Assembly: GCF_029690045.1 (NCBI RefSeq)
Contig: NZ_CP121464.1
Location: 3,968,001 to 4,032,000, forward strand
DNA length: 64,000 bases
Direction of reading: 5' to 3'
From: Janthinobacterium rivuli
GTDB taxonomy: Bacteria; Pseudomonadota; Gammaproteobacteria; Burkholderiales; Burkholderiaceae_D
Under the pieces are notes generated by a model that was not told the DNA's origin, searched no databases, and saw only the letters and a program-made list of their open reading frames with translations. Position numbers and translations under genes: made by a program. The stretch's first letter is position 1, and the number at the start of each line of letters is the position of its first letter. Shown here piece by piece: positions 1 to 40,615 of the stretch.

Positions 1-791
1 CCGGCAGCGAACTGTTCGGCCACGAACGGGGCGCCTTTACGGGCGCGGCGGCGGCGCGCGACGGCGCGTTTGCCCTGGCCGACGGCGGCGTGCTGTTCCT
101 CGACGAAGTGGGCGAACTGCAACTGCCCCTGCAGGCGCAGCTGCTGCGCGCCATCCAGGAGCGCAAATACAAGCGCGTGGGCGGCAATACCTGGCAACCG
201 ACGCAATTTCGGCTCGTCTGCGCCACCAACCGCGAACTGGAAGACGAGGTGGCGCGCGGCGCCTTCCGTGCCGACCTGTATTACCGCATCGCCGGCTGGC
301 GCTGCCAGACGCCACCCCTGCGCGAGCGCCAGGACGACATCCTGCCGCTGGCCCGGCATTTCCTCGCCGAACTGGCGCAACGGCCGCCGCCCGCGCTGGA
401 CGCCGCCGTGAGGGAATACCTGCTGCTGCGCGACTATCCGGGCAATGTGCGCGAACTGCGCCAGACCGTCACGCGCATCTGGCACCGCCATTGCGGCCCC
501 GGCCCCATCACCATCGGCGCCCTGCCGCCCGAAGAACGGCTGCTGGCGCCGCCCTGGCCCGACCAGCACTTCGAGGCGGCCGTGCGGCGGGCCCTGGCGC
601 AGGGCTGCAAGCTGTCGCACATCACGCGCTGCGCCACCGACGTGGCCATCCGCCTCGTGCTGGCCGAGGAAGGCGGCAACAACCAGCGCGCCGCCGCCCG
701 CCTGGGCGTGAGCGACCGCGCGCTGCAGATACGCCGCAAGGCGGCCAGCTGCGCAGCGCAGCTGGCACCGCCTGATGTTGTGCCGCCATAA
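1..791 (+). CDS. Sigma-54-dependent transcriptional activator, C-terminal part (5' end outside window)
   Basis: This is an enhancer-binding protein that uses ATP to open sigma-54 promoters. The reading frame is already open at base 3. The first visible residues include the sigma-54 contact loop GAFTGA (here ERGAFTGA), followed by the Walker B segment GGVLFLDEVGEL, the sensor I region CATNRELE and the arginine-finger region FRADLYYRI. The last third carries a Fis-type helix-turn-helix (NNQRAAARLGVSDRALQ). The Walker A motif and any N-terminal sensory domain lie upstream of the window, so the signal and targets cannot be read. The stop codon is TAA at 789-791. The acyltransferase gene follows 33 bases later on the same strand. 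Confidence 0.9.
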   Translation, partial: GSELFGHERGAFTGAAAARDGAFALADGGVLFLDEVGELQLPLQAQLLRAIQERKYKRVGGNTWQPTQFRLVCATNRELEDEVARGAFRADLYYRIAGWRCQTPPLRERQDDILPLARHFLAELAQRPPPALDAAVREYLLLRDYPGNVRELRQTVTRIWHRHCGPGPITIGALPPEERLLAPPWPDQHFEAAVRRALAQGCKLSHITRCATDVAIRLVLAEEGGNNQRAAARLGVSDRALQIRRKAASCAAQLAPPDVVPP

Positions 792-824: not shown

Positions 825-1997
825 ATGTCCAGCCCAGCCTGCCATCGCCTGTCCATCTGTTTCGACCTGTCGCGCCCCGGCGCGGCGCCGCAACTGCGCG
901 CCATGGAAGGCTTGCGCGGCCTGGCCGTGCTGCTGGTGTTTCTCGTCCACTATGTCAGCCTGGAAGCGCCGTGGCGCGGCGATGGCGGCGCCGTCACGCC
1001 GCTGGCGACGGCCCTGCACAGCATGGGTAATGCGGGGGTCGACCTGTTTTTTGTGCTCAGCGGCTATCTGATCTATGGCTCGCTGATGTCCCGCCAACAA
1101 GCGCTGCTGCCCTACCTGCGCCGCCGCGCGCGCCGCATCTATCCCGTCTACAGCTGTGTCTTCGTCCTGTACCTGCTGCTGTCGTGGGCCCTGCCGTCGG
1201 AAAGCAGGATACCGGCGGCATGGCCGCAGGCAGTCGCTTACCTGACCAGCAATTTCCTGTTGCTCAGCGGCTTCACGGCGGCGCCACCGTTCATCAGCGT
1301 GGCCTGGTCGCTCAGCTACGAAATGCTGTATTACCTGCTGATCCCCCTGCTCATCCTGGTCTTCGATTTGCGCCGGCGCAGCCGCAGCTGGCGCGGCGGC
1401 TTCTTCGCCGTGCTGACCTTGCTGGCAGGCGGCCTCTTCGCCATCTTCGGCGGACCCGCCCGTTTGCTGCTGTTTATCGCCGGCATCCTTGTCCATGAAG
1501 CGCTGGCAGCACCCGCCTGGCGCGCGCCGCCACCCGCACTGGCCGCCTGCGCCGTGCCGTGCGCGCTGGGTTGTTTGTTGCTGCCGCTGGCACTGCTGTT
1601 GAAACTGGCATTGCTGGCGTGTGCCTTTTTCCTGCTTTGCCTGTGCTGCTTCCAGGCGCGCGCCAACTGGCTGGCGCGCCTGTTTTGCTGGACGCCCTTG
1701 CGCTGGCTCGGCAATATCAGCTACTCCTACTATCTGATCCACGGCCTGGCGCTGAAAGGCGCCTTCCTGGCGCTGGCGCTGCTCCATCCGCCGCAAGCGC
1801 ATGGCCTGGCCTTCTTTTTGCTGCTGATGCCGCTGATGCTGGCCTTCAGCCTGCCACCGGCAATGACACTATTCCTGCTCGTCGAGCGGCCGTTGTCATT
1901 GTCGCCATCGCAGGCGTCCGTGCCTGCGATGGCGACTGCGCCTGCTGCGGTGTCTAGCCCTGCCTTGCCAGCCGCAGGAAATTCTCCCCCAGGATGA
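825..1997 (+). CDS. Acyltransferase-3 family membrane protein (OafA/YrhL-like)
   Basis: This is a polytopic inner-membrane acyltransferase of the family that O-acetylates surface polysaccharides and similar targets. About ten hydrophobic segments are visible. The family signature is present: MEGLRGLAVLLVFLVHY near residue 27, with the R-x10-H spacing, and VDLFFVLSGYLI near residue 75. The length of 390 residues is normal for a membrane-only member without an SGNH domain. I chose the ATG at 825; the ATG at 903 would start right at the first motif and seems too short. The last 25 residues are an Ala/Pro/Ser-rich tail, and its final 44 bases overlap the convergent amidohydrolase gene. The acceptor substrate cannot be inferred. 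Confidence 0.85.
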   Translation: MSSPACHRLSICFDLSRPGAAPQLRAMEGLRGLAVLLVFLVHYVSLEAPWRGDGGAVTPLATALHSMGNAGVDLFFVLSGYLIYGSLMSRQQALLPYLRRRARRIYPVYSCVFVLYLLLSWALPSESRIPAAWPQAVAYLTSNFLLLSGFTAAPPFISVAWSLSYEMLYYLLIPLLILVFDLRRRSRSWRGGFFAVLTLLAGGLFAIFGGPARLLLFIAGILVHEALAAPAWRAPPPALAACAVPCALGCLLLPLALLLKLALLACAFFLLCLCCFQARANWLARLFCWTPLRWLGNISYSYYLIHGLALKGAFLALALLHPPQAHGLAFFLLLMPLMLAFSLPPAMTLFLLVERPLSLSPSQASVPAMATAPAAVSSPALPAAGNSPPG

Positions 1998-2682
1998 GCG
2001 CGGCATCGGCTGGCGGCAAGCCCAGCAGTTCAATCTTGTGCAATTCCAGCCCCGGATGCAGCCAGGGGCCGTCCGAACCGAACAATACCTTGTGCGGCCC
2101 CGCGCGGCGCACGGCCTGTTGCAGCAAGTCGAAGCGGCGCACGCCCGGGCTGTCCGTATGGATGTTACGGTGGCGCACCAGATGGTCGATCAGCGCCAGC
2201 TGTGCAGCCCAGTCGTCGCCAAAGCTGCCCAGGTGCGGCAGGATGAAGTTAACGTCGGGATACTGCTGCGCCAGCAATTCCGCCACGGCCACCTCACCGG
2301 CCGGGTCGTACAGCACGGGCAAGCCGAAGAAGCGCGCCGTCTCGCACACTTCGCCGCTGATGCGCGCATCAAGCCGGTGCGCCTTGATGCCGACAAAGCC
2401 GTAGCGCTCGACGGCCGTGCGCACCAGGTCCATGATGCGGCCCCGGTCGCGCCGCGCATGCACGAAGGCAAAGCCGTAAAAACGCTGCGGATCGGACGCG
2501 ACCAGGCGCGCCACGCCATGGTTGGCGATGGCGTAGTCGGAGTGGAAGGCGGCGAACAGCACGCTGCGGGCGATGCCGGCCGTCTGGGCGCGGCGCAGGT
2601 AGGCCTGCAGCGGCGCATCGCTGTCCCACGGCCCGCTCAAGCCGTCGCCCTGTCCCGCATGGCAGTGGCAATCGATGATCAT
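1954..2682 (-). CDS. Amidohydrolase family protein (TIM-barrel, amidohydrolase-2 type)
   Basis: This is a 242-residue metal-dependent hydrolase or decarboxylase of the amidohydrolase-2 type. The N-terminus MIIDCHCHAG gives the HxH metal pair. A lysine-histidine segment (GIKAHRLDAR), an ILPHLGSFGD histidine and the C-terminal LFGSDGPWLH aspartate complete the usual metal-ligand pattern. It is the last gene of the minus-strand cluster that begins near 10177, and starts 9 bases after the stop of the gene before it. Its 3' end overlaps the convergent acyltransferase gene by 44 bases. The substrate is unknown. Its place at the end of an uncharacterised operon suggests a small-molecule role, but that is inference. 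Confidence 0.8.
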   Translation of the reverse strand: MIIDCHCHAGQGDGLSGPWDSDAPLQAYLRRAQTAGIARSVLFAAFHSDYAIANHGVARLVASDPQRFYGFAFVHARRDRGRIMDLVRTAVERYGFVGIKAHRLDARISGEVCETARFFGLPVLYDPAGEVAVAELLAQQYPDVNFILPHLGSFGDDWAAQLALIDHLVRHRNIHTDSPGVRRFDLLQQAVRRAGPHKVLFGSDGPWLHPGLELHKIELLGLPPADAALILGENFLRLARQG

Positions 2683-2691
2683 CGTGCCACG

Positions 2692-3342
2692 CTATTGCCA
2701 GTCGCCCATGACGACGATGCGGTTGCCGCGTCGGCGCCAGCGTCCGCTTTCATCTTCCTGCTGCGGCGCAGGCGAGCGGAAGTGCGGCAATTGCTGGTGC
2801 AGGGCCCGCGTCAGCGCGCTTTCCACGGCGCGCGCGCTGCCGTCGCCGTCGGCCGCCAGGCGCGCCGCCTGCCCCGCGATACGCACGAAGCGGCGCGCCA
2901 GTTCCAGTTCGCGGTCGGCCGGTGCTGCGCTCTCCATTTCGAGTTCCAGCGCATTGCTGGCCGCGCGCCCCAGGGCCGACCCGAGCGCCGTGCCCACGCC
3001 CGGTATCGGTATCATCGAGCCGAGGGCGCCGCCGACAAAGGGCAAGGCCGTCTTGGCCACGGCCTTCAAGGCGCCGCCCAAAGGCTTGGCCACCTTGGCA
3101 ATGGTCGCGCCCACCTTCTTGACGCCCTTCCACACGCTTTTGAAGACATTGCCGAGAAACTGTTCCAGTTCCTCTTCGCTGGCCACTTCCAGCAACTCCA
3201 TAGCCAGCTGCAATTCTTCCTCTTCGCTCAAGACAGCCGGTGCGCGGCCCTTGCCGGGCCAGTCCCGGCCGAACTCCAGCACTTCAAACGCAGCGCCGGC
3301 CCGCTGCCGGCATTGCGCGCATGCGCATTCGAGTTGGTGCAT
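2692..3342 (-). CDS. Glycine-zipper-like protein with C-terminal GRWxRxGxxIV motif (paralogue 3 of 3)
   Basis: The function is not recognised. This is one of three related proteins in the cluster (with 8822-9547 and 9611-10177). Visible parts in order: a Cys-containing acidic start with AFEVLEFG; an acidic helix (EEEELQLAMELLE, then EEELEQFLGN); a Lys/Gly/Ala-rich hydrophobic stretch with GGALGSMIPIPGVGTALGS, resembling a glycine zipper or membrane-inserting hairpin; the segment DRELELARRFVRIA; and the ending GRWRRRGNRIVVMG. I chose the ATG at 3342 because AAGGAGA lies 6 bases upstream; an ATG at 3366 lacks this. No signal peptide is seen. It lies between the GIY-YIG gene and the amidohydrolase gene. 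A membrane-active or exported protein is possible, without proof. Confidence 0.7.
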   Translation of the reverse strand: MHQLECACAQCRQRAGAAFEVLEFGRDWPGKGRAPAVLSEEEELQLAMELLEVASEEELEQFLGNVFKSVWKGVKKVGATIAKVAKPLGGALKAVAKTALPFVGGALGSMIPIPGVGTALGSALGRAASNALELEMESAAPADRELELARRFVRIAGQAARLAADGDGSARAVESALTRALHQQLPHFRSPAPQQEDESGRWRRRGNRIVVMGDWQ

Positions 3343-3375
3343 GACGGTCTCCTTCGCAGTCATCAAGTGCTGGTG

Positions 3376-4245
3376 TCAACCCCACATTTCACCGAGCACG
3401 GCCATTTCCAGTTCGCGCCGCTGGTTGGTCAGCACGCCGCGCCGGTGGGTAAACATGTCGCTGTGGATATCCTTTTCCATGCTGCGCCGCTGCGCGGCCG
3501 AGGATAGCGGCGCCACGTAGACATCGTGCGCGCTCATGTCCATGCCCATCATCTTGCCGCACAGGTGGTGCTGTTTCAGGCGCCGCCGCAAATCATCGGT
3601 CTGGCCGCTGTAGGCGCGCCGGCCATCTTTGGTGTCGAACTCGATCACATACAGGCCCGGCCCCGTTGCCGTCACATCGCTGACGGCCTGCGGAATCGCG
3701 CCCACAGCCTGGTAGCGCAAGGCGGCCGCGCCCGGCACACGGCCCAGGGTGGACGCCAGGATGGGCGGCACTTCGCCCTGCATCTGGCCGCCGTCCTGGT
3801 CCTGGTCTGGATCCTGGTCTTGGTCTTGATCCTGCGCCGGCTCCTGCTGGCCGCCGGACACGGGATACGGCGTGGGATAAATGGTGGGAAAAAAGGCACC
3901 ATAGCCACCCCAGCCCCGGTAGCGCGGCGGATACGGCAAGGGCGGCGGCGGATAGCGTGGCGGCCGGCGGCCCTGGCCCTGGTAGCGTGGCGGCGCGGGA
4001 CGGCGCGGGCCCCGCAGCGGCGGCCTCGCGCGCAAGCCGCCACCGCGCATGGGCATGGCGCCGCGTCCGCCGCCCGGGCGCGCACGCTCGCCTTCCCATT
4101 CACTCTCCCACTCACTCTCCCATTCACCTTCCCACTCGCCCTCTGCCTCTTGCGTCCACTCCTGCGACCATTCTTGCGACCATTCCTGCTCGCCGGCCGC
4201 TCCCGATTGTCCCGCAAAGGGCAGCATTTCAAACGCTTCGTTCAT
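3376..4245 (-). CDS. Glu-Trp-repeat protein with C-terminal GIY-YIG nuclease domain
   Basis: Three parts are visible in 289 residues. Residues 20-53 are an acidic repeat of EW units (EWSQEWSQEW, EWEGEWESEW). Residues 55-160 are low complexity: Arg/Gly/Pro-rich, then Pro/Tyr-rich, then a DQ repeat. Residues 190-289 form a GIY-YIG domain with G197-L-Y199, Y212-S-G214, R220/R222 in LRRRLKQH, E257 in SMEKD and N274 in VLTNQ, so all catalytic positions of the family appear intact. The fold cuts DNA in homing endonucleases, UvrC and some toxins. The ATG at 4245 is preceded by AGGAGG and overlaps the end of the upstream gene by 17 bases. A disordered tag fused to a nuclease suggests an exported or scaffold-bound enzyme; this is inference. 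Confidence 0.75.
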   Translation of the reverse strand: MNEAFEMLPFAGQSGAAGEQEWSQEWSQEWTQEAEGEWEGEWESEWESEWEGERARPGGGRGAMPMRGGGLRARPPLRGPRRPAPPRYQGQGRRPPRYPPPPLPYPPRYRGWGGYGAFFPTIYPTPYPVSGGQQEPAQDQDQDQDPDQDQDGGQMQGEVPPILASTLGRVPGAAALRYQAVGAIPQAVSDVTATGPGLYVIEFDTKDGRRAYSGQTDDLRRRLKQHHLCGKMMGMDMSAHDVYVAPLSSAAQRRSMEKDIHSDMFTHRRGVLTNQRRELEMAVLGEMWG

Positions 4246-5257
4246 ATCGCCTCCTGATGTGATGTTCAAGCAAGTTCATCGCCTGCTCCAGTTGCCGTGG
4301 CGTCTGGTCCGCCCGCAGCAGAAAAGTCAGCGCGCCGGGACCGTTCCCCGCTTGCGCCAGCGCCAGCACGCCTGCTGCGCGCAAGGCGGGCTGCAAATGG
4401 GCGCGGCCGGGCAGGCGCTGCACGGGAAAGCTGCCACCGCGGCAAACGATGCCGGCCGCCGCCATTCCCGTCTTCCATTGCGCCACCCTGTCCGCCAGCC
4501 TGGCGCGCAGAACGTCGCCATGGCGCGCATTGAGGGCCAGCGCGCGCCGCGCCGCCGCCAGCACGGCGGCCGACGGCGGACTGGCATGCACACGCGTCTG
4601 GCTGTGCGCCACGAAGCGCCGGAACAGCTTGCGGCTGCCGGCCAGCACGGCCAGCGGCACGCCGAATCCCTTGGCCAGCGAGGCGCCGACGATCAGCGAT
4701 TCTCCATGCAAGCCATGCAGCCGCGCCGAGCCGCCGCCCTGTGTACCCATCACGCCCAGCACCTGCGTGTCGTCCAGCAACAGATAACCGCCGCCCTGCT
4801 GCGCCAGGGCCGCGTAACCGGCCAACGGCAAGAGATGTTCGCTGCCCGGCACATAGCCATCGGCCAGGATCAGGGGGCGCCGCCCTTGCCGGCCCCAGGT
4901 TTCCACCAGTTGCCGCAAGGCCGCCATCTCGCCGCTGGGAAACAATCGCAGCGGCAAGCCCAGCGCCTGCGCCCGCTCGGCGCCCCAGCGCGCGATGGCG
5001 TAGCTGCCGCCATCGACGAGGATCACCAGCCGCTCGGCAGCCAGCATGCCGAACAGGTCCCAGAACAAATGCAGGGTCGACGGCAGCATCCAGGCCGCTT
5101 CGCAGCCTTGCAGCGCAGCCAGGTCCATGGCCAGAGCCCGCGCGCCGGGCGGCTCCTGTAGCGCGGCCGGCTGGCCCAGGCTCAAGCTGCTCCACGGCGC
5201 CAGCGCAGCCGCCGGATGGCGCATGCCCAGGTACAGGGCACTGCTAAAGTCGAGCAT
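4229..5257 (-). CDS. PLP-dependent aminotransferase-fold protein, alpha-oxoamine synthase-like
   Basis: This 342-residue protein resembles 8-amino-7-oxononanoate synthase and relatives, which condense an amino acid with an acyl thioester. Seen: LLLDDTQVLGVMG near residue 160 (the PLP ring-binding Asp region, normally DEAHGxG) and SLAKGFG with the Schiff-base lysine at K196. It is about 40 residues shorter than typical BioF, and DDTQ replaces the usual DEAH, so biotin synthesis is unlikely. A GGGAGGGG ribosome binding site precedes the ATG at 5257. It sits between the 724-residue unknown and the GIY-YIG gene in a tight same-strand run. It may make or modify a small molecule for the cluster, or it may have lost activity. 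Confidence 0.72.
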   Translation of the reverse strand: MLDFSSALYLGMRHPAAALAPWSSLSLGQPAALQEPPGARALAMDLAALQGCEAAWMLPSTLHLFWDLFGMLAAERLVILVDGGSYAIARWGAERAQALGLPLRLFPSGEMAALRQLVETWGRQGRRPLILADGYVPGSEHLLPLAGYAALAQQGGGYLLLDDTQVLGVMGTQGGGSARLHGLHGESLIVGASLAKGFGVPLAVLAGSRKLFRRFVAHSQTRVHASPPSAAVLAAARRALALNARHGDVLRARLADRVAQWKTGMAAAGIVCRGGSFPVQRLPGRAHLQPALRAAGVLALAQAGNGPGALTFLLRADQTPRQLEQAMNLLEHHIRRRYERSV

Positions 5258-5276
5258 GCACGCGTCCCCTCCCGCC

Positions 5277-7451
5277 CTAGACGCTGCGCAGCTGCTGGCT
5301 CAGGCGCTGGCGCAGCAGCACCGAGGGCATCGTAGCTTCGACCACCGGGTCGCTGCTGTCGACGGACAGGTCGACCCCGGTGGCGGCGCGGTAGCCGTGG
5401 ATATAGCCCTGCACCTGCGGGCGCCAGAAGCGCGCCCAGTTGAAGGCCTGCGTCGGTTCATAAATGTCGCTCCAGTTGCCATAGCGCACGGAGAGCAGCA
5501 ATTGCTCGCCAAAGATGGCCAGGTTACGGAAGTGCATCACGCTCGTATCCGTCCAGCCCTGCAGTTTCTTCATGGCGTCAACCCTGTCCATCCACGGTTC
5601 CGGATACGCCACCATCACGCGCGTCGGTAAAAATTCGCGGAACTCGGGCCGCGCCAGCATCCATTGCTGCATCAGCATCTCGATACGCGCCGTCGACGGC
5701 AAGTCGCCGAACTGGTTGTGCGCGCCTTGCGACAGGATCAGGTGGATTTCTTTCAAGGCATTCAGCACGGGGAAGGCGTCCGCCTTCACGGTGGTGTCGT
5801 CATCCTGCTTGTAGAACGAGGTCAGCTGGCGCAGCAAGTGGTGGAAGGCCTCCAGGAATTTGGAGCGGCTATCGGCTGGCCGGAAGTGCTGCACTGCCTT
5901 GCCGTCCAGGCGCACACCGTAGTGATGGTCATATTCATAGTTCCGGCGCATCACGGTCAGCCGATGCTGTTCATCCTGCGTGTATCCCCAGAGTAAATTA
6001 TTCAGCGGACGCAACATGTCGATTTCCGTGTTCGACAGGGGATCGAGATGGTTGCCCGGCGCGCGCAGATTCTGGAAGCGCTGCGCGATGGCGTTCATGG
6101 TTTGCACCAGCATGCCCTCTTCATGCCAGTACGACCAGATCAGTTCCAGCAGGCAAGGATTGGCCAGCTTTTCCTGGATGATGCCAAAGCACAGATCGAC
6201 TTCGCCTTCCTGGCCGCGCGGGATGCTGATGGGAATGTCGGGCAGCTTGCGGCGGATCACGGCCAGGTAGGGCAAGGTCTGGAAGCCGTCGATGTTTTCC
6301 AGGTAATCGTTGCGCAGCACGGTTTCCAGGTCGCGTCCCTGGGGAATGTCGCGCCGGTCCAGGTAGGCGTTGTCCTCGGCCGGATTGAAGGCCAGCGGCT
6401 GGTTCAGCACGCCGCAATTGACCATCACGAACGCTTCCGTCGCCACTTTCAGCACGCGGTAGGAATCGGCATCGGAAAACGGCAGCGCGCGGCGTTGCTT
6501 GAGCTGCTGGAACACCTCGGCCTTTTTGACGAAGCGTTCCTGCTCGAAACCGCGCACATTGGCCAGGTCGCCGCAAAACAGGCTGTCCATGAAATGCAGG
6601 TAGTTGGTAAACGACATCGCCTCGGTGCTGTTGCGTATCAAGGTCCACAGCGGCAAGTCTTCCGTCGGTTCCGTTTCCGTGCGCGTCAGCGACACGCCCA
6701 CATTGCCCGAGATGGGCTGCGGCTGGCGCTCTTCCGTCTCGTATTCCGCATCCACGGCCAGCATGGCGTTCGGGCTCAGCCCTTCCGGCACGGGCAAGGC
6801 GCTGCGCAGTTCGGGCCGCTGCGACAGCATCATCTGCCCCATGAAACGGTGCATGCCGGCGCGCCGCACGGGGGTGGAAAAGGTATTCGCCGCGCCGCGC
6901 ATGGGCACCCATGGCGCGGCGGCCAGCACCTGCACCTGGTCACGCCCATCGGCGCTTTGATCGCCGTCAAAGGAAACGGTGGCCACGGCGCGGTCGCCCA
7001 CCCTGCCGAAATGGCAGTCGCTGGGCTGGCAATCGGCGGTCTCGAACACCAGGCCCACCTGGGGATTGAGCTGGGGCGTGAAGCACAGCACGGCGCTGCA
7101 ACCGGCCTGCACCGTCACGCACTGGGGCGCCGTGGCGGGAAAATTGCCATACACCCCCACGTAGCTGCCCGTCGCCAGGTCGGAAAACACGGTGCGGCCG
7201 GTGCCGTCGGTCCAGCGCACGCCCACCAGCATGGCGGGATCGGCTACCCAGGTGGCGGCATTGAACAGATGGCAATCCGCATCCATGCCCCGGTACAGGC
7301 TGATGGCGGCATTGACGACCCTCACCCCGCTGTCCTGTTCGTGTACGGTGACAGCGATGCTGCCGCCGTGGTGTTTCGGACCGGCCTGGCCCGCCGCCCC
7401 GCTCTTGCTGCTCATCTTGCCACCCATATTGCTGCTTATCTTGCTGCTCAT
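5277..7451 (-). CDS. Large uncharacterised protein (724 residues) of the cluster
   Basis: I do not recognise this protein. The first 25 residues are Ser/Gly/Lys-rich. Residues about 30-130 look like a beta-sandwich of the carboxypeptidase-regulatory or prealbumin kind (SIAVTVHEQDSG, AAISLYRG, TGSYVGVYG). The rest is long, mixed alpha-helical and rich in aromatic and charged residues, with LLWGYTQDEQHRL followed by NYEYDHHYG near residue 500. No signal peptide or membrane helix is apparent. GAGGAGA lies just before the ATG at 7451. It is the largest gene in the unit, 10 bases after the zincin-like gene, so the two are probably co-translated. A structural or enzymatic core role is possible but not supported by any motif. 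Confidence 0.7.
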   Translation of the reverse strand: MSSKISSNMGGKMSSKSGAAGQAGPKHHGGSIAVTVHEQDSGVRVVNAAISLYRGMDADCHLFNAATWVADPAMLVGVRWTDGTGRTVFSDLATGSYVGVYGNFPATAPQCVTVQAGCSAVLCFTPQLNPQVGLVFETADCQPSDCHFGRVGDRAVATVSFDGDQSADGRDQVQVLAAAPWVPMRGAANTFSTPVRRAGMHRFMGQMMLSQRPELRSALPVPEGLSPNAMLAVDAEYETEERQPQPISGNVGVSLTRTETEPTEDLPLWTLIRNSTEAMSFTNYLHFMDSLFCGDLANVRGFEQERFVKKAEVFQQLKQRRALPFSDADSYRVLKVATEAFVMVNCGVLNQPLAFNPAEDNAYLDRRDIPQGRDLETVLRNDYLENIDGFQTLPYLAVIRRKLPDIPISIPRGQEGEVDLCFGIIQEKLANPCLLELIWSYWHEEGMLVQTMNAIAQRFQNLRAPGNHLDPLSNTEIDMLRPLNNLLWGYTQDEQHRLTVMRRNYEYDHHYGVRLDGKAVQHFRPADSRSKFLEAFHHLLRQLTSFYKQDDDTTVKADAFPVLNALKEIHLILSQGAHNQFGDLPSTARIEMLMQQWMLARPEFREFLPTRVMVAYPEPWMDRVDAMKKLQGWTDTSVMHFRNLAIFGEQLLLSVRYGNWSDIYEPTQAFNWARFWRPQVQGYIHGYRAATGVDLSVDSSDPVVEATMPSVLLRQRLSQQLRSV

Positions 7452-7461
7452 GTCATTCTCC

Positions 7462-8817
7462 TCAATGGATAATCAAACGCGACGCCAGGGGCGGCAGCGG
7501 CCTGCCGGACGGGCGGCCATGCCGCACGACATCGGCGCACAGCTCCGACGTGTCCAGCGTGCTGCGCAGGGCCCAGTGGCTCAGCAAACGTCCCAGCAGC
7601 TCGCTTTCGTCTTCCGGGCTCAAGGTGCCGCTGGCGCGCGCCTGGCCCAGCACGGCGAACACCAGGGTCGGCGTCGCCTGGTACATCTGCGCCGGCGCCA
7701 GGGTCCAGCTGCGAAACAGCTGCGCCAGCATGGCCGGCTGGCGTGTGTGCACGGCCATGGCCTCGACCAGCGAGCCGCCGCGCAATGCTGGCGGCCGGTG
7801 CTGCACCAGCAAGCCCACGAGGGCCGCCATGCTGGCCTGCAACTGTTCCAGCAGCCGCTGCCGGGCTGGCGGCAGACCCGTCAACGGGTAGTACGATAGC
7901 CACAGCTGTTCCAGGCGGTCCCACTGCGGGTGCGGATACAGGGCCCGTCCCATGGCGCAGCTCAGGCCCACCCGCAGCCATGGCACCGGGTGGGGATCGT
8001 CGATATTGAGGCGGAAGACAAACACGCGCGGCAGACTGACCACGCCGATCAGTCCCAGGGTGGCGGCCACGCCCACCCGCGCCAGCGACCAGAAATCGGC
8101 CACGATTTCGGATATCCACCGTTCCCACAGCTGCCACACGTGCACGGCACCGCTGCCGCCGTGCTGCATCGCTTGCAGCACGGGCCGCAAGGACGCCACC
8201 AGGTCCAGCAGCGCCGCGCCCTGGTGGCCCACCTCGTGCACCAGCGACGAGGCGATGCTGCTGCCGATCATGCGTTCGCGCGGCAGGCGGATGATGGCGA
8301 CGGGATTGTCGCCGCCGCCCGGCAGGCGCGTGCGTGCGCGGCGGATAGCCGCGCCCGGTCCCCGGTCCAGGTAGCAGATCACGGGCGGCGCCTGGTACAC
8401 ATTGCCGGGCAGCGCCAGCGCATCCGCGGCAACGATGTCCAGGCCAGCCAGCCACACGCCCGTCTTGTGCTCGCTGCGCTGCGTGATGACTTCGTTGAAC
8501 AGGTCGAACTGGGTCAGCGCGGCATTGAACTTCAGGCGCAGGAAGGTAAAGCGGCGCTGCGCCTCGGCGGCCGTGGCCATGCTGGCGCCGTCGGCGTGCT
8601 CGCGCCGCAACCACCACTGGAACTGGGCCACCATGCGCCGCAGTTCGCGCCGGCCCTGCACCAGCTGGCTTTCGATGGCCGACTGGGCGCTGGGCATCAG
8701 GGCGGCCGCCAGCACCGTCGGTTCGATCAGCGCGAACGGTTCCAGCCGCGCCAGCCGGGTCAGCAGCGAGCGTGCCTCCTGCGCCAGCATCCAGGCTGCG
8801 TAAGCGCCGATGGCCAT
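7462..8817 (-). CDS. Zincin-like protein with HExxH and ExxxD motifs
   Basis: The protein has 451 residues. The motif LVHEVGHQ puts H194, E195 and H198 in HExxH spacing, and SEIVADFW follows with E237-xxx-D241, which is the gluzincin pattern for the third zinc ligand. I therefore read it as a probable zinc metallopeptidase, although the family is not one I can name. A helical N-terminal part (residues 1-120) precedes the catalytic segment, and a hydrophobic stretch near 245-265 may pack the core or anchor to membrane. The chosen ATG at 8817 lies 4 bases after the stop of the preceding gene. Possible roles are processing of the three paralogous proteins or of a target; both are inference. Confidence 0.68.
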   Translation of the reverse strand: MAIGAYAAWMLAQEARSLLTRLARLEPFALIEPTVLAAALMPSAQSAIESQLVQGRRELRRMVAQFQWWLRREHADGASMATAAEAQRRFTFLRLKFNAALTQFDLFNEVITQRSEHKTGVWLAGLDIVAADALALPGNVYQAPPVICYLDRGPGAAIRRARTRLPGGGDNPVAIIRLPRERMIGSSIASSLVHEVGHQGAALLDLVASLRPVLQAMQHGGSGAVHVWQLWERWISEIVADFWSLARVGVAATLGLIGVVSLPRVFVFRLNIDDPHPVPWLRVGLSCAMGRALYPHPQWDRLEQLWLSYYPLTGLPPARQRLLEQLQASMAALVGLLVQHRPPALRGGSLVEAMAVHTRQPAMLAQLFRSWTLAPAQMYQATPTLVFAVLGQARASGTLSPEDESELLGRLLSHWALRSTLDTSELCADVVRHGRPSGRPLPPLASRLIIH

Positions 8818-8821
8818 GATG

Positions 8822-9547
8822 TCAGACGCCGTACAGGACGATTTTGTGGCCCTGGCGCGCCCAGCGTCCGCTGGACTGGCGCATGCCGCCCTGGCCGCGT
8901 CCGCCGCCCTGCGCCATGCCGCCCGCGCCAGCGCCGCTGCCGTTCTGCGTGGCGACCTGGCTGCCGGGGCGCCCCAGCAGGCCGGGCGCGAACTGGCGCG
9001 CCGCCGCGCTGGCGGCCGCCTGGGCGATGGCGCGCGGGTCGCCCGCACCGCGCGCCTGCGCGGCGCGGTTGACGGTATCGGCGGCCAGGCGCACGAACTG
9101 CTTGGCGCCTTCGAATTCGCGGTCCTCGTTTGACGACGCTTCCGCTTCCAGCCCCAGCGCGCCGCCGGCGGCCGAGGCCAGGCCGCTGCCGATCTTGGCG
9201 CCCAGCGGGCCGCCGAAATAGCCGCCGATGGCGCCGCCGGCCAGGGGAATGGCCTTCTTCGCCACACCCTTGAGCACGCCGCCGATGGCTTGTCCCACGG
9301 GCGACTTGATGATGCCGCCCGCCACCGACGCGGCCTTGCGCAGGAAATTGCCGAGAAACTGCTCCAGTTCGGCTTCATTGCTGACCGACAGCAGTTCATT
9401 CGCCAGTTCCATCTCCTCGGTCTCGGAAAACATGGCGTTCGCGCCGCCCTCGCCACTCCACTCGCCCTGGCCAAACTCGAACTGTTCCGCTTCAAAGCCG
9501 GACATCTCCTGCCCGTATTCCAGGGTCGTACGATCCAAGTCATGCAT
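8822..9547 (-). CDS. Glycine-zipper-like protein with C-terminal GRWxRxGxxIVLxG motif (paralogue 2 of 3)
   Basis: This is a paralogue of 2692-3342, with 241 residues. The N-terminus carries acidic-aromatic units (EAEQFEFGQGEW). An acidic helix follows (ETEEMELANELLS, AELEQFLGNFLRK). Then come a long Gly/Ala-rich hydrophobic region (AIPLAGGAIGGYFGGPLG and GSGLASAAGGALG) with GxxxG spacing, the segment DREFEGAKQFVRLA, a Gly-rich linker, and the ending GRWARQGHKIVLYG. GAGGAGC lies 5 bases before the ATG at 9547. It resembles membrane-inserting or bacteriocin-like sequences in its middle, but there is no leader or lipobox. It is followed 4 bases later by the zincin-like gene. Confidence 0.72.
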   Translation of the reverse strand: MHDLDRTTLEYGQEMSGFEAEQFEFGQGEWSGEGGANAMFSETEEMELANELLSVSNEAELEQFLGNFLRKAASVAGGIIKSPVGQAIGGVLKGVAKKAIPLAGGAIGGYFGGPLGAKIGSGLASAAGGALGLEAEASSNEDREFEGAKQFVRLAADTVNRAAQARGAGDPRAIAQAAASAAARQFAPGLLGRPGSQVATQNGSGAGAGGMAQGGGRGQGGMRQSSGRWARQGHKIVLYGV

Positions 9548-9610
9548 GATCAGCTCCTCAAAGTGATTACCTCGGTTGGGACTACCTTGCCGGACAGACT
9601 GGCCGTCCGG

Positions 9611-10177
9611 CTAACAATCGAGCACGACGATGTGCCCGCCCTCGCGGCGCCAGCGGCCAGCGTCCCGCCCCGGCGTTTGCGCCGCCTGCCTGAGCAAGCC
9701 TGGCGCCTCGCTGCGTGCCACTTGCAGCAAGGCCGTTTCCACCCGTGCCCCGGGCGCGCGCGTGCCCATGCCGCCGTCCTGCGCCAGCGCCGTGTTGACG
9801 GCATCGATCAGATGCACGACCTGGCGCGCCAGTTCGAATTCCTTGTCTTCCGGGCTGAGTCCTTCCAGTTCCATGCCGAAGATGCGGGCAGCGCGCCGCT
9901 TGAGCGCCTGCGGCGAACCGCCATGCAGGGGCAGCAAGGGCGCCACCACCTTGCCCAGCAACTGGCGCAGCGGGCCTTCCAGCGGCGTGCCGCGCACTTG
10001 CTGTCCCGCCGCCGTGGCGTCCAGCTGGCGCGCCAGGAAAGCATCAAACTGGGCCGGCGCCTGCAATTCCAGCAATTGCGCCGCCAGTGCCAGTTCATCT
10101 TCCTGCTGCAAAGGCAGCACGCCCGGCGCTTCAGGCAATTCCATTTCGGGACGATAGGCGAGCAGGCGGCTGGTCAT
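9611..10177 (-). CDS. Protein of the GRWxRxG family (paralogue 1 of 3), first gene of cluster
   Basis: This is the most diverged of the three paralogues, with 188 residues. It shares the acidic helix (QQEDELALAAQLLELQ), the central KEFELARQVVHLID segment and the ending GRWRREGGHIVVLD. The glycine-zipper region is replaced by a proline- and leucine-rich stretch (KVVAPLLPLHGGSP), so it probably cannot insert in membranes the way the other two might. I used the ATG at 10177, preceded by GGAG; the frame is open further upstream to 10333 without a better start. It opens the minus-strand cluster and faces the DUF1800 gene across a 412-base AT-richer gap. The function is unknown. Confidence 0.68.
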   Translation of the reverse strand: MTSRLLAYRPEMELPEAPGVLPLQQEDELALAAQLLELQAPAQFDAFLARQLDATAAGQQVRGTPLEGPLRQLLGKVVAPLLPLHGGSPQALKRRAARIFGMELEGLSPEDKEFELARQVVHLIDAVNTALAQDGGMGTRAPGARVETALLQVARSEAPGLLRQAAQTPGRDAGRWRREGGHIVVLDC

Positions 10178-10589
10178 GACAGGCTCCGGTGAAAGATGGG
10201 CGAGTAAGCCATGCCTCCCTGTTGCAAGGGCCATGCCAGTCAGGCGCAGGGGAAAAAAGAGACAGGACGGCGAACGGCGTTTCGCCGATAGCGTAAAAAC
10301 CATGGTTTCCGGCGAAGCGGGTTTCGTTGTCAAGATGAGCTTTTGAACAAGCTTAATTGGCAGGAATGGTTACGTCGCCTATCCGCCACAGTGCTTGTTC
10401 CAGACAAAAAATATTTTTCATTTTCAAAAAACAAACTTCGCGCTACATCTTCAAACACACCTTCATTGCCACGCCAAATGGTCGCAAAAATAAACGTGGC
10501 CAACACGTAAATAGTTAATTGGAAACAGGATTTTAGTAGGCAAGCCCTACAATTAACGGGCCAGAATTTGATTGCCTGAAAGAAACTAA
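10178..10589. other. Intergenic region between divergent operons
   Basis: No gene is convincing here. Bases 10340-10560 are clearly AT-richer than the surroundings (A-runs around 10405-10440), which fits promoters for both the minus-strand cluster and the plus-strand DUF1800 operon. I could not identify a convincing sigma-54 element or a known operator. Confidence 0.5.
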
Positions 10590-12392
10590 ATGATAGACCC
10601 TACTTTGCGCCGTTTATTGGCCATCACCCTACTCAGCCTGCTAGCCGCCTGCGGCGGTGGCGGCGACAGCAAGACCGGCGCCACCCAGAACCCGGACATC
10701 TCGGCCGTGCCACCGGGGACCACCGCCCCCGGCGATCCGGCAGCCCCCGGCACCAAGCCCGGCGAGACCATTCCGCCGCCGCCCCTGACCACGCCACCGG
10801 CCGGCCAGACGGCCACGTTCACGCGCCCGGCAGCGTCGCGCTTCCTGGGCCGCGCCACGTTCGGGCCGGACATGGCGGCCATCGATGCCCTGGCCGCCAG
10901 CGACAGCGACGCCTGGTTCCGCGCGCAGTTTTCCAAGCCGCAAACCTTGCACCGTAAATATATCGACGCCAAGTATCCCGTCGCGGGCGCGGCGGCCACC
11001 CAGGCCGTGCCGAACGACTTTTATGAATCGTTCTGGCAGCAAGCCGTGCGCGGCGACGATCAGTTGCGCCAGCGCGTGACCTTTGCCCTGTCGGAAATAT
11101 TTGTCATCTCAACGCAAAACGAGGCCGTGTGGCCGCAAACGCGGGGCGTCGCCAGCTATTACGATATGCTGGGGCAACATGCGTTCGGCAACTTTCGCAC
11201 CCTGCTGCAGGGCGTGGCCACGCATCCGATGATGGGGCTGTACCTGTCGCACCTGCGCAACCAGAAGGAATCGGCCACGCGCACGCCCGACGAAAATTTC
11301 GCCCGCGAAGTGATGCAGTTATTTACCATCGGCCTGTACCAGCTGAATGCCGATGGTTCATTGAAAATGTCCGGCGGCAAACCCATCGACACCTACACGC
11401 GCGACGATGTGAGCGGCCTGGCGAAAGTGTTTACGGGCTGGAGCTGGGCCGGGCCGGACCAGGGCGCGAACCGCTTCTTTGGCAGCGTGGCCGATCCGGA
11501 CCGCGACTGGAAGCCGATGCAGAACTATGCGGCGTACCACTCGACCAGCGAAAAACGCTTTCTGGGCGTCAGCGCGGCGGGCGCCGCCGGCGGCGAAGCG
11601 GACATGGCCCTGGCCCTCGACACCCTGTTCAACCATCCGAATGCGGGTCCCTTCTTTGGCCGCCAGCTGATCCAGCGCTTAGTGACCAGCAACCCCAGCC
11701 CGGCCTATGTGGGCAGGGTCGCGGCCGCCTTCGCCAACAATGGTTCTGGCGTGCGCGGCGACATGCAGGCCGTGATCCGCGCCGTGCTGCTCGATCCCGA
11801 CGCGCTGGCGCCAGCCGGCAGCAGCCTGCGCACGGGCAAGCTGCGCGAACCGCTGGTGCGTCTGGGCAACTGGATGCGCGCATTCCACGCCAAGGATGCC
11901 GCCTTGCAGTACCGCATCTATTACCTCAGCGATCCGCTGTCGGGACTGGGCCAGAATCCCATGAACGCGCCCTCCGTCTTCAATTATTTCCGTCCGTCCT
12001 ACGTGCCGCCCAATTCGGCGCTGGCGACGGCGGGCCTGGTGGCGCCGGAAATGCAGATCACGTCGGAGCCGTCTGTCACCGGCTACCTGAACTTCATGCA
12101 GGACGCCATCAGCGGCGGCGTGGCGGAAAACAGCGCCGTTAAGGGCGACTACTCGGCCGAACTGGCGCTGGCCGAGCAGCCGGCCGCCTTGCTGGACCGG
12201 GTCAACTTGCTATTAATGTCCGGCAATATGTCATCCCGGCTGCGCACCAGGATCCTGTCGGCCGTCACGAGCATCGCGATTCCCGCCGCCAACGGCAGCA
12301 ATGCCGCGCAAGTGACGAAGGCGAAATCCAACCGCGTGTACCTGGCCATTTTCCTGGCCATGGCCTCGCCTGAATACCTGGTTCAAAAATAA
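10590..12392 (+). CDS. DUF1800 domain-containing lipoprotein
   Basis: This is a 600-residue exported protein. The N-terminus has a lipoprotein signal with lipobox LLAAC at Cys21, followed by a Gly/Pro/Thr-rich linker to about residue 75. The remainder is the DUF1800 domain: the segment ASRFLGRATFGP near its start, FYESFWQQAVRGDDQLRQR, and ENFAREVMQLFTIGLY are typical of the family. DUF1800 genes are almost always followed by DUF1501 genes, as here (9 bases downstream), so the two products probably act together in the envelope; the biochemical activity is not established. The ATG at 10590 has only a weak Shine-Dalgarno sequence. Confidence 0.88.
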   Translation: MIDPTLRRLLAITLLSLLAACGGGGDSKTGATQNPDISAVPPGTTAPGDPAAPGTKPGETIPPPPLTTPPAGQTATFTRPAASRFLGRATFGPDMAAIDALAASDSDAWFRAQFSKPQTLHRKYIDAKYPVAGAAATQAVPNDFYESFWQQAVRGDDQLRQRVTFALSEIFVISTQNEAVWPQTRGVASYYDMLGQHAFGNFRTLLQGVATHPMMGLYLSHLRNQKESATRTPDENFAREVMQLFTIGLYQLNADGSLKMSGGKPIDTYTRDDVSGLAKVFTGWSWAGPDQGANRFFGSVADPDRDWKPMQNYAAYHSTSEKRFLGVSAAGAAGGEADMALALDTLFNHPNAGPFFGRQLIQRLVTSNPSPAYVGRVAAAFANNGSGVRGDMQAVIRAVLLDPDALAPAGSSLRTGKLREPLVRLGNWMRAFHAKDAALQYRIYYLSDPLSGLGQNPMNAPSVFNYFRPSYVPPNSALATAGLVAPEMQITSEPSVTGYLNFMQDAISGGVAENSAVKGDYSAELALAEQPAALLDRVNLLLMSGNMSSRLRTRILSAVTSIAIPAANGSNAAQVTKAKSNRVYLAIFLAMASPEYLVQK

Positions 12393-12401
12393 GGAAGCTG
12401 C

Positions 12402-13847
12402 ATGACTACCCCTACTCACTTCTCGCGCCGCCGCTTCCTCGGCTCCATGCTGGGCCTGGCAGGCAGCACGGCCGCGCCCTTCGCCCTCAACCTGGCCGCC
12501 ATGGGGCAGGCTGCGGCCCAGTCCGCCGACGACTACAAGGCCCTCGTCTGCCTGTTCATGAACGGCGGCAACGATACCTTCAACACGGTGCTGGCCACCG
12601 ACACGCCTTCATGGAGTGAATATGTGCGCCTGCGCAACACGGGCAGCAACGATTCGATCCACCTGCCCGGCGTCGGCGAAACGGGCGGCGTGCTGCCGAT
12701 CACACCCGCCACGGCGCAGGCCGGCCGCAGCTTTGCCCTGCATCCCGCCCTCGCTCCCGTGAAAGACCTGTTCGACGGCGGCCGCGCCGCCATCGTTGCC
12801 AATGTCGGCACCCTGATCCAGCCCGTGACCCTGGCGCAATACAAGGCGGGCAATGTGGCGCTGCCGCCGAAACTGTTTTCGCATAACGACCAGCAATCGA
12901 CGTGGCAATCGGGCTTGCCGGAAGGCGCCAGCATCGGCTGGGGCGGACGCCTGGGCGACCTGCTGGGCGCCGGCAACGCAAATGCGACGTTTACCGCCAT
13001 CTCGGCCGCGTCAAACGCGCTCTTCCTCAGCGGGCGCCAGGTGCGCCAGTTCCAGGTGGGCCGGGCGGGCGCCGTGCCGATCCGCAATATCGGCGGCGGC
13101 TACCTGTTCGACACCACCGAGGGTGAAACCGCCTTGCGCGACATCATCAGCACGGCGGGCGACGACATGATGGAGCAGGAACACGTGGCCACGGTGCAGC
13201 GCGCCATTTCCAGCCAGAGCGTGCTGAGCGGCGCCATGCTGGCTGCCGGCGCGGGCGGCGTGCCCAATCCGCCGCCCTATATCAACCCGAACACGGGCGC
13301 GTCCAGCGTCAACCAGCTGGCCGTGCAATTGCAGACGGTGGCGCGCATCATCGGCGGGCGCGGCCCCCTCGGAGCGAAACGGCAAGTGTTTTATGTGACA
13401 CTGGGCAGTTTCGACACGCATGACCGCCAGAAGGAGCTGCATGGCGACCTGATGGCGCGCCTGGCGCACGCGCTCGCGTATTTCGACGCGACCCTGGCGG
13501 CCCTGCAAGGTGCCGACGTGCGGCGCCAGGTGACGACGTTTACGGCCTCGGACTTCGGCCGCACCTTCAGCAGCAATGGCGACGGCACGGATCACGGCTG
13601 GGGCGCGCACCACTTTGTCGTGGGCGGCGCCGTGAAAGGCCGCGACATCTACGGCGCCTTCCCCACCACGGGCCTGGGCCATGAGCTGGACGTCGGCTCC
13701 GGCGCCCTGCTGCCGACCACTTCCGTCGACCAGTACGGCGCCACCCTGGCCAAGTGGTTCGGCGTGGCCGACAGCCAGCTGGCCGAGGTGTTCCCGAACA
13801 TCGGCAACTTCAGCCGGCGCGACCTGGGATTCATGACGGCAACTTAA
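12402..13847 (+). CDS. DUF1501 domain-containing protein, Tat-exported
   Basis: This 481-residue protein has a twin-arginine signal (SRRRFLGSMLGLAG) with cleavage likely after AAAQS near residue 40. The DUF1501 family belongs to the alkaline-phosphatase/sulfatase-like superfamily: LVCLFMNGGNDTFNTV near the start, FYVTLGSFDTHDRQ in the middle and DFGRTFSSNGDGTDHGWG near the end supply the metal-ligand-like Asp and His positions. The ATG at 12402 is preceded by AAGGAAG. It forms a two-gene unit with the DUF1800 gene and ends with a 4-base overlap against the convergent dioxygenase-like gene. The substrate is unknown. Confidence 0.88.
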   Translation: MTTPTHFSRRRFLGSMLGLAGSTAAPFALNLAAMGQAAAQSADDYKALVCLFMNGGNDTFNTVLATDTPSWSEYVRLRNTGSNDSIHLPGVGETGGVLPITPATAQAGRSFALHPALAPVKDLFDGGRAAIVANVGTLIQPVTLAQYKAGNVALPPKLFSHNDQQSTWQSGLPEGASIGWGGRLGDLLGAGNANATFTAISAASNALFLSGRQVRQFQVGRAGAVPIRNIGGGYLFDTTEGETALRDIISTAGDDMMEQEHVATVQRAISSQSVLSGAMLAAGAGGVPNPPPYINPNTGASSVNQLAVQLQTVARIIGGRGPLGAKRQVFYVTLGSFDTHDRQKELHGDLMARLAHALAYFDATLAALQGADVRRQVTTFTASDFGRTFSSNGDGTDHGWGAHHFVVGGAVKGRDIYGAFPTTGLGHELDVGSGALLPTTSVDQYGATLAKWFGVADSQLAEVFPNIGNFSRRDLGFMTAT

Positions 13848-40524: not shown

Positions 40525-40615
40525 TCAGTTTTGAGGGCAAACCCGTCGAAAGGCGGGGACGCAAAGCCACCGGCCTACCGCGCGCAAGCGCCACGGCAGC
40601 GGGGCTGCCAATGTG
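40525..40615 (+). promoter_or_regulatory. Cyclic-di-GMP-I (GEMM) riboswitch aptamer
   Basis: The sequence has the class I aptamer order: GAGGGCAAACC, a hairpin closed by GAAA (CCCGTCGAAAGGCGGGG), the conserved GGACGCAAAGCC, the CCGGCCUA strand, and the second stem GGCAG-CGGGG-CUGCC. All near-invariant bases of the family appear present. The aptamer sits about 80 bases before the protease start. No U-run terminator lies in between, so control is more likely at translation than at termination; this is inference. Confidence 0.9.

Follow-up and report, generated by a model that had tools for sequence, protein, structure and literature searches.

What does a run of eight closely spaced genes do for a bacterium when the families at its core match nothing curated? 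The question is posed by a 64,000-nucleotide stretch of the Janthinobacterium rivuli genome (contig NZ_CP121464.1, positions 3,968,001 to 4,032,000; henceforth, the window), in which an original prediction, made from the letters alone, had delineated an eight-gene minus-strand cluster at positions 1954 to 10177. The genome is a single 6.3-Mb contig with a completeness of 100%, whose nearest named relatives are Janthinobacterium. Our analysis reveals a conserved gene system with a slot for variable cargo, an N-terminal tag on cargo proteins and likely regulation by sigma-54. We read it tentatively, at somewhat less than an even chance, as a sigma-54-controlled module in which glycine-rich carriers are loaded with a nuclease and tagged wall hydrolases, likely for killing neighbouring bacteria. 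The features of the cluster and its regulator are:

10223..10238, minus strand: sigma-54-type promoter TGGCATGGCCCTTGCA, agreeing with 11 of 12 consensus positions
9611..10177, minus strand: SC1, a divergent SC paralogue of 188 amino acids (aa), with the C-terminal GRWRREGGHIVVLDC and a single GxxxG
8822..9547, minus strand: SC2, a glycine-zipper-like paralogue of 241 aa, with the C-terminal GRWARQGHKIVLYGV and 15 GxxxG
7462..8817, minus strand: zincin-like protein of 451 aa, with HEVGH and E237
5277..7451, minus strand: 724-aa protein, with CnaB/SpaA-like immunoglobulin (Ig) domains and a 480-residue all-helical domain
4229..5257, minus strand: divergent alpha-oxoamine-synthase-like pyridoxal-phosphate (PLP) enzyme of 342 aa, with K196, D162 and D163
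3376..4245, minus strand: GIY-YIG cargo protein of 289 aa, with an FEMLPF tag, EW repeats, an R/P-rich linker and a GIY-YIG domain
4216..4233, minus strand: N-terminal cargo tag F-E-M-L-P-F of the GIY-YIG protein
2692..3342 (or 3363), minus strand: SC3, an SC paralogue with a CxCxxC start and three GxxxG; AAGGAG precedes 3342
1954..2682, minus strand: Amidohydro_2 enzyme of 242 aa, with its metal site (H6, H8, K100, H150, D204) intact
1..791, plus strand: sigma-54 activator, C-terminal part only, its start lying left of the window

One gene order across distant bacteria

The eight open reading frames (ORFs), all on the minus strand, are separated by 63, 4, 10, 19, −17, 33 and 9 bases. Judged by eye, a purine-rich ribosome-binding site precedes six of the eight starts, so that the good sites claimed for most genes were recovered except before the zincin and amidohydrolase genes, where they are weak. 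For SC3, the start at 3342 is preferred over that at 3363 on account of the AAGGAG upstream. The sigma-54-type site (10238-10223) ends 45 bases upstream of the ATG at 10177, which supports the right-hand boundary originally drawn for the cluster. No sigma-70-type site was found between positions 1500 and 11000, and a tRNA scan of the window returned none.

Related loci were collected using 21 aligned members of the 724-aa family as the query, which yielded 124 encoding stretches in genome contigs; the best 80 of these were analysed. Having been found via the 724-aa protein, the 80 loci are not independent, and 15 of them are from Janthinobacterium; some contigs end within the cluster, so that absences are overstated. 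In profile searches, all 80 have the 724-aa protein, 77 the zincin, 76 SC, 74 the PLP enzyme and 61 the amidohydrolase, with all five families present together in 57; a loose whole-protein profile found GIY-type proteins in 56 of the 80. The cluster genes occupy a single strand in every one of the 80 loci, and one gene order prevails: the zincin gene is immediately 5′ of the 724-aa gene, no more than 1.2 kb away, in 76 of 77 loci; 72 loci have an SC gene 5′ of the zincin; and the PLP enzyme (74/74) and amidohydrolase (61/61) invariably lie 3′ of the 724-aa gene. Such recurrence of the same families in the same order cannot plausibly be put down to chance. Conservation of the neighbourhood extends across phyla, and homologues scattered singly, which the original prediction had named as the observation that would undo it, were not seen. 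Along with the ORFs, their small gaps and the sigma-54-type site, the common order bears out the proposal that the eight genes form one operon.

The carriers span six phyla, several of them represented by metagenome-assembled genomes (MAGs), and include Betaproteobacteria, Nitrospirota and Actinomycetota; one gene order over such a range points to a function valued by selection. The 724-aa gene was also found on four plasmid records. The three examined, from Ensifer, Rhizobium and Paraburkholderia phymatum, all keep SC, the zincin and the 724-aa protein, and two of the three have a Pfam-confirmed activator, with an activator look-alike ORF in Ensifer. The P. phymatum locus (L096) has one SC and no PLP enzyme, along with the amidohydrolase and the activator. 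An Actinomadura locus (L084) has SC, the zincin, the 724-aa protein and an M74 murein endopeptidase, with neither PLP enzyme nor amidohydrolase found on its 14.7-kb contig. Shared by all these minimal sets are SC, the zincin and the 724-aa protein, which we take as the smallest core, without the PLP enzyme and amidohydrolase.

The phyletic pattern is patchy, with the cluster found in 4 of 300 genomes of the order (the J. rivuli genome included) and in 1 of 197 genomes of the class of the Actinomadura carrier, namely that carrier itself. In a tree of 48 rows with several strongly supported forks, the Comamonadaceae appear at two places and the Methylococcaceae fall within Nitrosomonas rows. Horizontal transfer of the cluster is likely. 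For the 724-aa protein, the only one searched in this way, no relative was found in 50,697 phage records and none was confirmed in IMG/VR.

Sigma-54 promoters have a −24/−12 consensus. It was applied as the pattern TGGCACG-N4-TTGCW, requiring a match at 10 or more of the 12 positions, in the interval −500 to +250 around the first SC ORF; the test covered 73 of the 80 loci. Sites of this quality occur in 57 of the 73, compared to 0.07 expected per 750 bases. Of the 80 loci, 51 also have, on the strand opposite the cluster, a gene of one sigma-54 activator family. Where activator and amidohydrolase occur together (47 loci), the activator gene is no more than 2.5 kb 3′ of the amidohydrolase in all but one (46); GAFTGA is present in 48 of the 51 activators. 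The Pfam domain Sigma54_activat was confirmed in the window piece and in loci L048 (E = 5e-56), L095 and L096. The C-terminal part of the window's own regulator lies at positions 1-791 (plus strand), beyond the cluster as originally delineated; the regulator's complete ORF (L097:3346-4791) is of 481 aa and contains GAFTGA. With both a −24/−12-type promoter and an activator gene, the operon is likely controlled by sigma-54.

A variable slot and its N-terminal tag

A variable set of genes sits between the PLP enzyme and amidohydrolase genes. We took 93 plus-strand ORFs beside the cluster as slot ORFs, comprising 87 of 134 first listed and 6 added by hand; the list of 134 was already without most Janthinobacterium loci, 47 of its members were dropped by hand (mostly those past the amidohydrolase or in loci without one), and the 93 include wrong-frame ORFs and related sequences. 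The controls were 82 flanking proteins (of 99 listed), chosen as long ORFs and including some antisense frames. Among the 93, we found PG_binding_1 (28), GIY-YIG (17), Amidase_2 (11), M20 (8), Trypsin_2 (8), VanY (3), OmpA (3), Muramidase (2), NLPC_P60 (2), Extensin-like_C (2), PT-VENN (2, weak), Glucosaminidase (1), DUF2272 (1) and M74 (1). In the controls, which have 169 families, the slot families fall outside the 25 listed, all of which have two or more members, so that each slot family is present in at most 2 of 82. Judging from these domains, the GIY-YIG position is a variable slot for predicted peptidoglycan-, protein- or nucleic-acid-cutting enzymes.

The GIY..YIG residues, along with an arginine and a glutamate, are catalytic in nucleases of this superfamily. 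Our own profile detected 52 GIY-YIG domains in 51 of 83 loci, with the motif tyrosines, arginine, glutamate and asparagine largely kept. The window protein (3376-4245) scores under the Pfam cut-off (19.4 versus 22.6 bits), with some relatives above it; as it retains the catalytic residues, it is a predicted nuclease.

The tag, F[EDR]xxP[FLI] within the first 80 residues, was found in 40 of 93 slot ORFs, from 35 of 56 loci, and in none of the 82 controls; over all listed slot ORFs the count is 40 of 134, with none among the 47 dropped. In residues 81-160 the pattern occurs in 1 of 93, and shuffling predicts 1.1 of 93. The pattern was chosen after viewing the cargo, making its strength descriptive; the controls played no part in the choice. 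With one extra fixed residue, it is seen in 50 of 2510 ORFs of at least 100 residues inside clusters versus 5 of 2491 outside, and of these five, one is in fact cargo that lies at the border of the range counted. The tag precedes unrelated catalytic parts: GIY-YIG (FEMLPF in the window), PG-binding (L040), OmpA and VanY (both L079) domains, as well as proteins with a trypsin-like TAxHC motif (L079, L082). Acidic-aromatic repeats often follow it, a few SC3 proteins also display it, and the M20-type slot ORFs are without it. In the J. rivuli genome, the DNA pattern for the tag is no commoner than a reversed control, and the GIY-YIG gene is the only long ORF with the pattern at its N-terminus. 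Should the tag load cargo, bacteria would have a new targeting signal, probably a transplantable one.

Cargo and SC domains are also found joined: in 11 loci a GIY-YIG domain is followed by an SC domain in one ORF, although in one of these (L049) an ATG between the two parts makes two genes possible. The window has the two as adjoining genes in the same order, GIY-YIG then SC3. In L072 an Amidase_2 domain lies behind SC, and L074 has an ORF of similar length.

Core families and accessory enzymes

The paralogous triad proposed originally was recovered when the J. rivuli genome was searched with SC2, which found SC3 (44% identity, E = 3e-30) and SC1 (39%, E = 7e-6); the sole further match is a 37-residue stretch elsewhere (E = 0.002). 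SC proteins are of 190-250 aa and are conserved along their whole length; SC2 begins with MHDxDRT, followed by an acidic-aromatic N-terminus. Across the family, an SC domain has 7.4 GxxxG compared to 3.8 in shuffled sequences, and a C-terminal motif is present in 141 of 213, its distance from the end being exactly 3 residues in 117. No match for SC was found in the curated-family and solved-structure libraries, and among the PHROGs, SC3 and SC2 had weak matches, to endolysin and tape-measure proteins (best E = 5e-4). Some SC2 relatives (P0127, P0134, P0137, etc.) reach ~390-420 aa, nearly double the usual length, and are possibly SC-SC fusions. Beside the Rhizobium plasmid cluster, an ORF of 435 aa on the opposite strand (L095:9974-11281, minus) has an SC-like stretch and a weak match to NolX (E = 0.015).

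In the zincin, H194, E195, H198 and E237 are kept in 78 of 78 aligned rows. An HExxH with a downstream glutamate is the gluzincin-type arrangement, making this a putative metallopeptidase; 20 members had no Pfam match at E up to 1, and the PDB sequences returned one insignificant row (E = 0.051). The 724-aa protein combines pilin-like Ig domains of the CnaB/SpaA type (residues ~26-240) with the all-helical domain of 480 residues, which lies within residues 240-724. In 111 sequences of the latter, E436, D493, E506, H509, H537, H570, E591 and E649 are invariant or nearly so. Searches with it found no fold match and no match among curated families or solved structures. Several of its conserved histidines and acids sit in ExxH-like motifs, and tryptophan 2,3-dioxygenase chains recur in weak Foldseek rows for residues 240-724 (E = 0.85-2.6).

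The PLP enzyme matches BioF in the PDB (E = 4e-10) with the lysine aligned, and K196, D162 and D163 are kept in 75 of 75 rows. Its residue 2 aligns to BioF residue 42, and it scores far under every NCBIfam cut-off. Compared to the alpha-oxoamine synthases (BioF, Kbl, SPT, CqsA), where the histidine of DDAH has a functional role, it has DDTQ in place of DDAH, with a glutamine for the histidine in at least 90% of rows. By its sequence, it is a short, divergent member of this group that retains the PLP-associated lysine and aspartate and lacks the DDAH histidine. The amidohydrolase matches Amidohydro_2 (E = 1e-16), and its metal site is kept throughout the rows with a letter at each position (H6 60/60, H8 60/60, K100 61/61, H150 62/62, D204 61/61).

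Thus, sequence matches agree with the earlier identification of HExxH, GIY-YIG (with EW repeats), alpha-oxoamine-synthase-like and amidohydrolase proteins. For the eight proteins, Pfam and NCBIfam gave names to the amidohydrolase, the PLP enzyme and, below the cut-off, the GIY-YIG domain only, and PHROGs and PADLOC gave weak matches only, the best being that of SC3 to an endolysin family (E = 5e-4). No named system emerged from Pfam, NCBIfam, PHROGs, PADLOC, the PDB sequences or the fold search with the 724-aa helical domain, and full-text literature searches found no description of the gene set. As had been suspected, it matches no known system in the family, defence, phage and structure libraries searched: the set is undescribed, and none of these libraries names the core SC, zincin and 724-aa families. 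Its interest lies partly in these three core families, which match nothing curated there.

Possible functions and genomic surroundings

The cluster has the look of a cargo-delivery device because unrelated cutting domains stand behind one tag, beside zipper-like proteins and a processing-type zincin. In such a device, the tag would dock cargo onto an SC/724-aa assembly, and the zincin and the 724-aa helical domain would mature or release SC via its common C-terminal tail. The glycine-rich SC helices might then insert into and permeabilise the target membrane, with the wall hydrolases opening the murein and the nuclease entering and cutting DNA. Exit from the producer could be by producer lysis or by an unrecognised exporter, both being possible. 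The killing of neighbouring bacteria is the most likely use of the module. The more specific formulation is the more doubtful one: that of an undescribed delivery system in which the N-terminal FExxPF tag loads an exchangeable cargo of wall hydrolases, proteases and nucleases on glycine-zipper carriers, matured by the zincin and a new-fold enzyme, and which breaches the target envelope without a known injection machine. If true, nitrifiers, Janthinobacterium and its kin, and soil actinomycetes would have a new way to attack neighbours or to lyse.

Precedents exist for parts of such a scheme. The Cdz system of Caulobacter, a precedent for zipper killing, comprises contact-dependent glycine-zipper bacteriocins of 84-86 aa with adjacent type I export genes and the immunity protein CdzI; like the cluster, it has one to three glycine-zipper proteins per locus, and many Cdz systems were seemingly acquired horizontally (PMC5380434). 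The SC family has the GxxxG enrichment, but its proteins (188-241 aa in the window) are not small toxins of ~5-10 kDa, and neither a type I exporter nor an immunity gene was recognised among the eight window genes, which feature enzymes and tagged cargo instead. For the zipper step, the precedent is Tde1, a DNase of the type VI secretion system (T6SS) with an N-terminal glycine zipper, which depends on a GxxxG motif both to permeabilise the membrane and to be delivered into prey (PMC10240207). Like Tde1, the cluster sets a nuclease alongside GxxxG repeats, here as the GIY-YIG and SC fusions of 11 loci; however, Tde1 is a T6SS effector that binds the adaptor Tap1 (PMC10240207), whereas no T6SS gene was recognised in the cluster. 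Set against what defines each of these systems, the cluster fits neither.

The T6SS marker VipB has 2 matches in the J. rivuli genome and is present in 20 of 40 carriers and absent from 20. Pvc16_N, a marker of extracellular contractile injection systems (eCIS), is present in 21 of 40 carriers versus 40 of 300 genomes of the order (a comparison unmatched for taxon and genome size), an excess that may reflect real co-selection. It is absent from the complete J. rivuli genome, and the eight genes, in contrast to an eCIS, include no sheath, tube or baseplate gene. Of the 40 carriers, 20 are without the T6SS and 19 without the eCIS, about half in each case, and 9 have neither; it follows that neither is the general exporter.

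Several observations weigh against the delivery module. The glycine zipper is clear in SC2 (15 GxxxG) and not in SC1 (1) or SC3 (3), and the SC proteins have modest hydropathy, the median of their maximum KD19 being 1.1; for these reasons, membrane insertion of SC is a putative step. The window's own cargo protein is without a wall-hydrolase or PG-binding domain, and 53 of 93 slot ORFs are without the tag; these include wrong-frame ORFs, M20 peptidases, late starts and some plain cargo, such as the Variovorax GIY-YIG proteins. At the P. phymatum locus, the interval from the 724-aa gene to the amidohydrolase contains none of the listed plus-strand ORFs. No immunity, exporter or injection gene was recognised in the cluster, with signal peptides sought by eye only. 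Neither of the delivery machines searched for is a requirement, given the absence of Pvc16_N from the J. rivuli genome and the 9 carriers, several of them MAGs or drafts, with neither Pvc16_N nor VipB. Nor does the model assign a clear role to the PLP enzyme or the amidohydrolase, both of which retain their catalytic residues. The weapon with a processing enzyme that the original prediction had floated is still a hypothesis, and one that gains from the variable hydrolase and protease slot, the common N-terminal tag and the GIY-YIG/SC fusions.

Some of these same points would suit programmed self-lysis, in which the activator turns on membrane-perforating, holin-like SC and endolysin-like hydrolases in the producer itself, freeing DNA, vesicles and other toxins, with the nuclease and proteases clearing the cell. 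Phage holin/endolysin lysis cassettes likewise encode a membrane-active protein together with wall hydrolases. The lack of a recognised immunity gene and of signal peptides visible by eye on the cargo, the many chemistries of the wall hydrolases and the weak PHROG matches of SC3 and SC2 (best E = 5e-4) are all consistent with it. We nevertheless consider it unlikely: lysis of this kind needs no common docking tag, dedicated zincin, PLP enzyme or amidohydrolase, a wholly lethal device kept across phyla requires a benefit to kin, and no wall hydrolase was recognised in L096, with its single SC. Unlike the phage cassettes, the cluster has these extra enzymes, the tag and sigma-54 control, and its 724-aa relatives were not found in the phage records or IMG/VR.

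Two further explanations appear less probable still, to about the same degree. One is the assembly of a surface or trans-envelope structure, anchored by the PG-binding and OmpA domains (28 and 3 of the 93 slot ORFs), with hydrolases making room and a CnaB-like scaffold. The pilin-like Ig domains of the 724-aa protein and the acidic low-complexity repeats fit this picture. It would not accommodate the GIY-YIG nuclease, however, which is found as 52 domains in 51 of 83 loci with its motif residues conserved, and by eye neither a sortase nor a signal sequence was recognised. The other is a modified-protein or small-molecule pathway, where SC precursors would be modified by the 724-aa helical enzyme and the PLP enzyme and cut by the zincin, the amidohydrolase finishing a product or signal. 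It draws on the catalytic residues kept in the zincin (78/78), the PLP enzyme (75/75) and the amidohydrolase, the invariant or nearly invariant acids and histidines in 111 sequences of the helical domain, and a minimal core of SC plus two putative enzymes. The small-molecule alternative raised originally retains some plausibility because the PLP enzyme and amidohydrolase keep these residues. Against it, SC proteins are of 190-250 aa and conserved over their full length, unlike typical peptide precursors, and the tagged wall hydrolases and GIY-YIG/SC fusions are left unexplained. Such modification may also be one step of the delivery module rather than its rival.

The surroundings of the operon include a membrane protein with an Acyl_transf_3 domain (825-1997, plus strand) between the activator and the amidohydrolase, the 3′ end of which has a convergent 44-base overlap with the amidohydrolase gene. 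Upstream, at 10590-13847 (plus strand), are a lipoprotein-like ORF and a Tat-like ORF, which we take to be DUF1800/DUF1501-like; members of the two families are again neighbours of the cluster in 12 and 8 loci, for the most part of Janthinobacterium, and DUF1800 was found in 2 of 82 flanking proteins of the relatives. Further away, outside the operon, a c-di-GMP-I (cyclic di-GMP) riboswitch lies at 40526-40612 (plus strand; 85.6 bits). Elsewhere in the genome, two Phage_sheath_1 genes at 1754660 and 2118994, with frames of ~400 aa, probably belong to prophages or tailocins.

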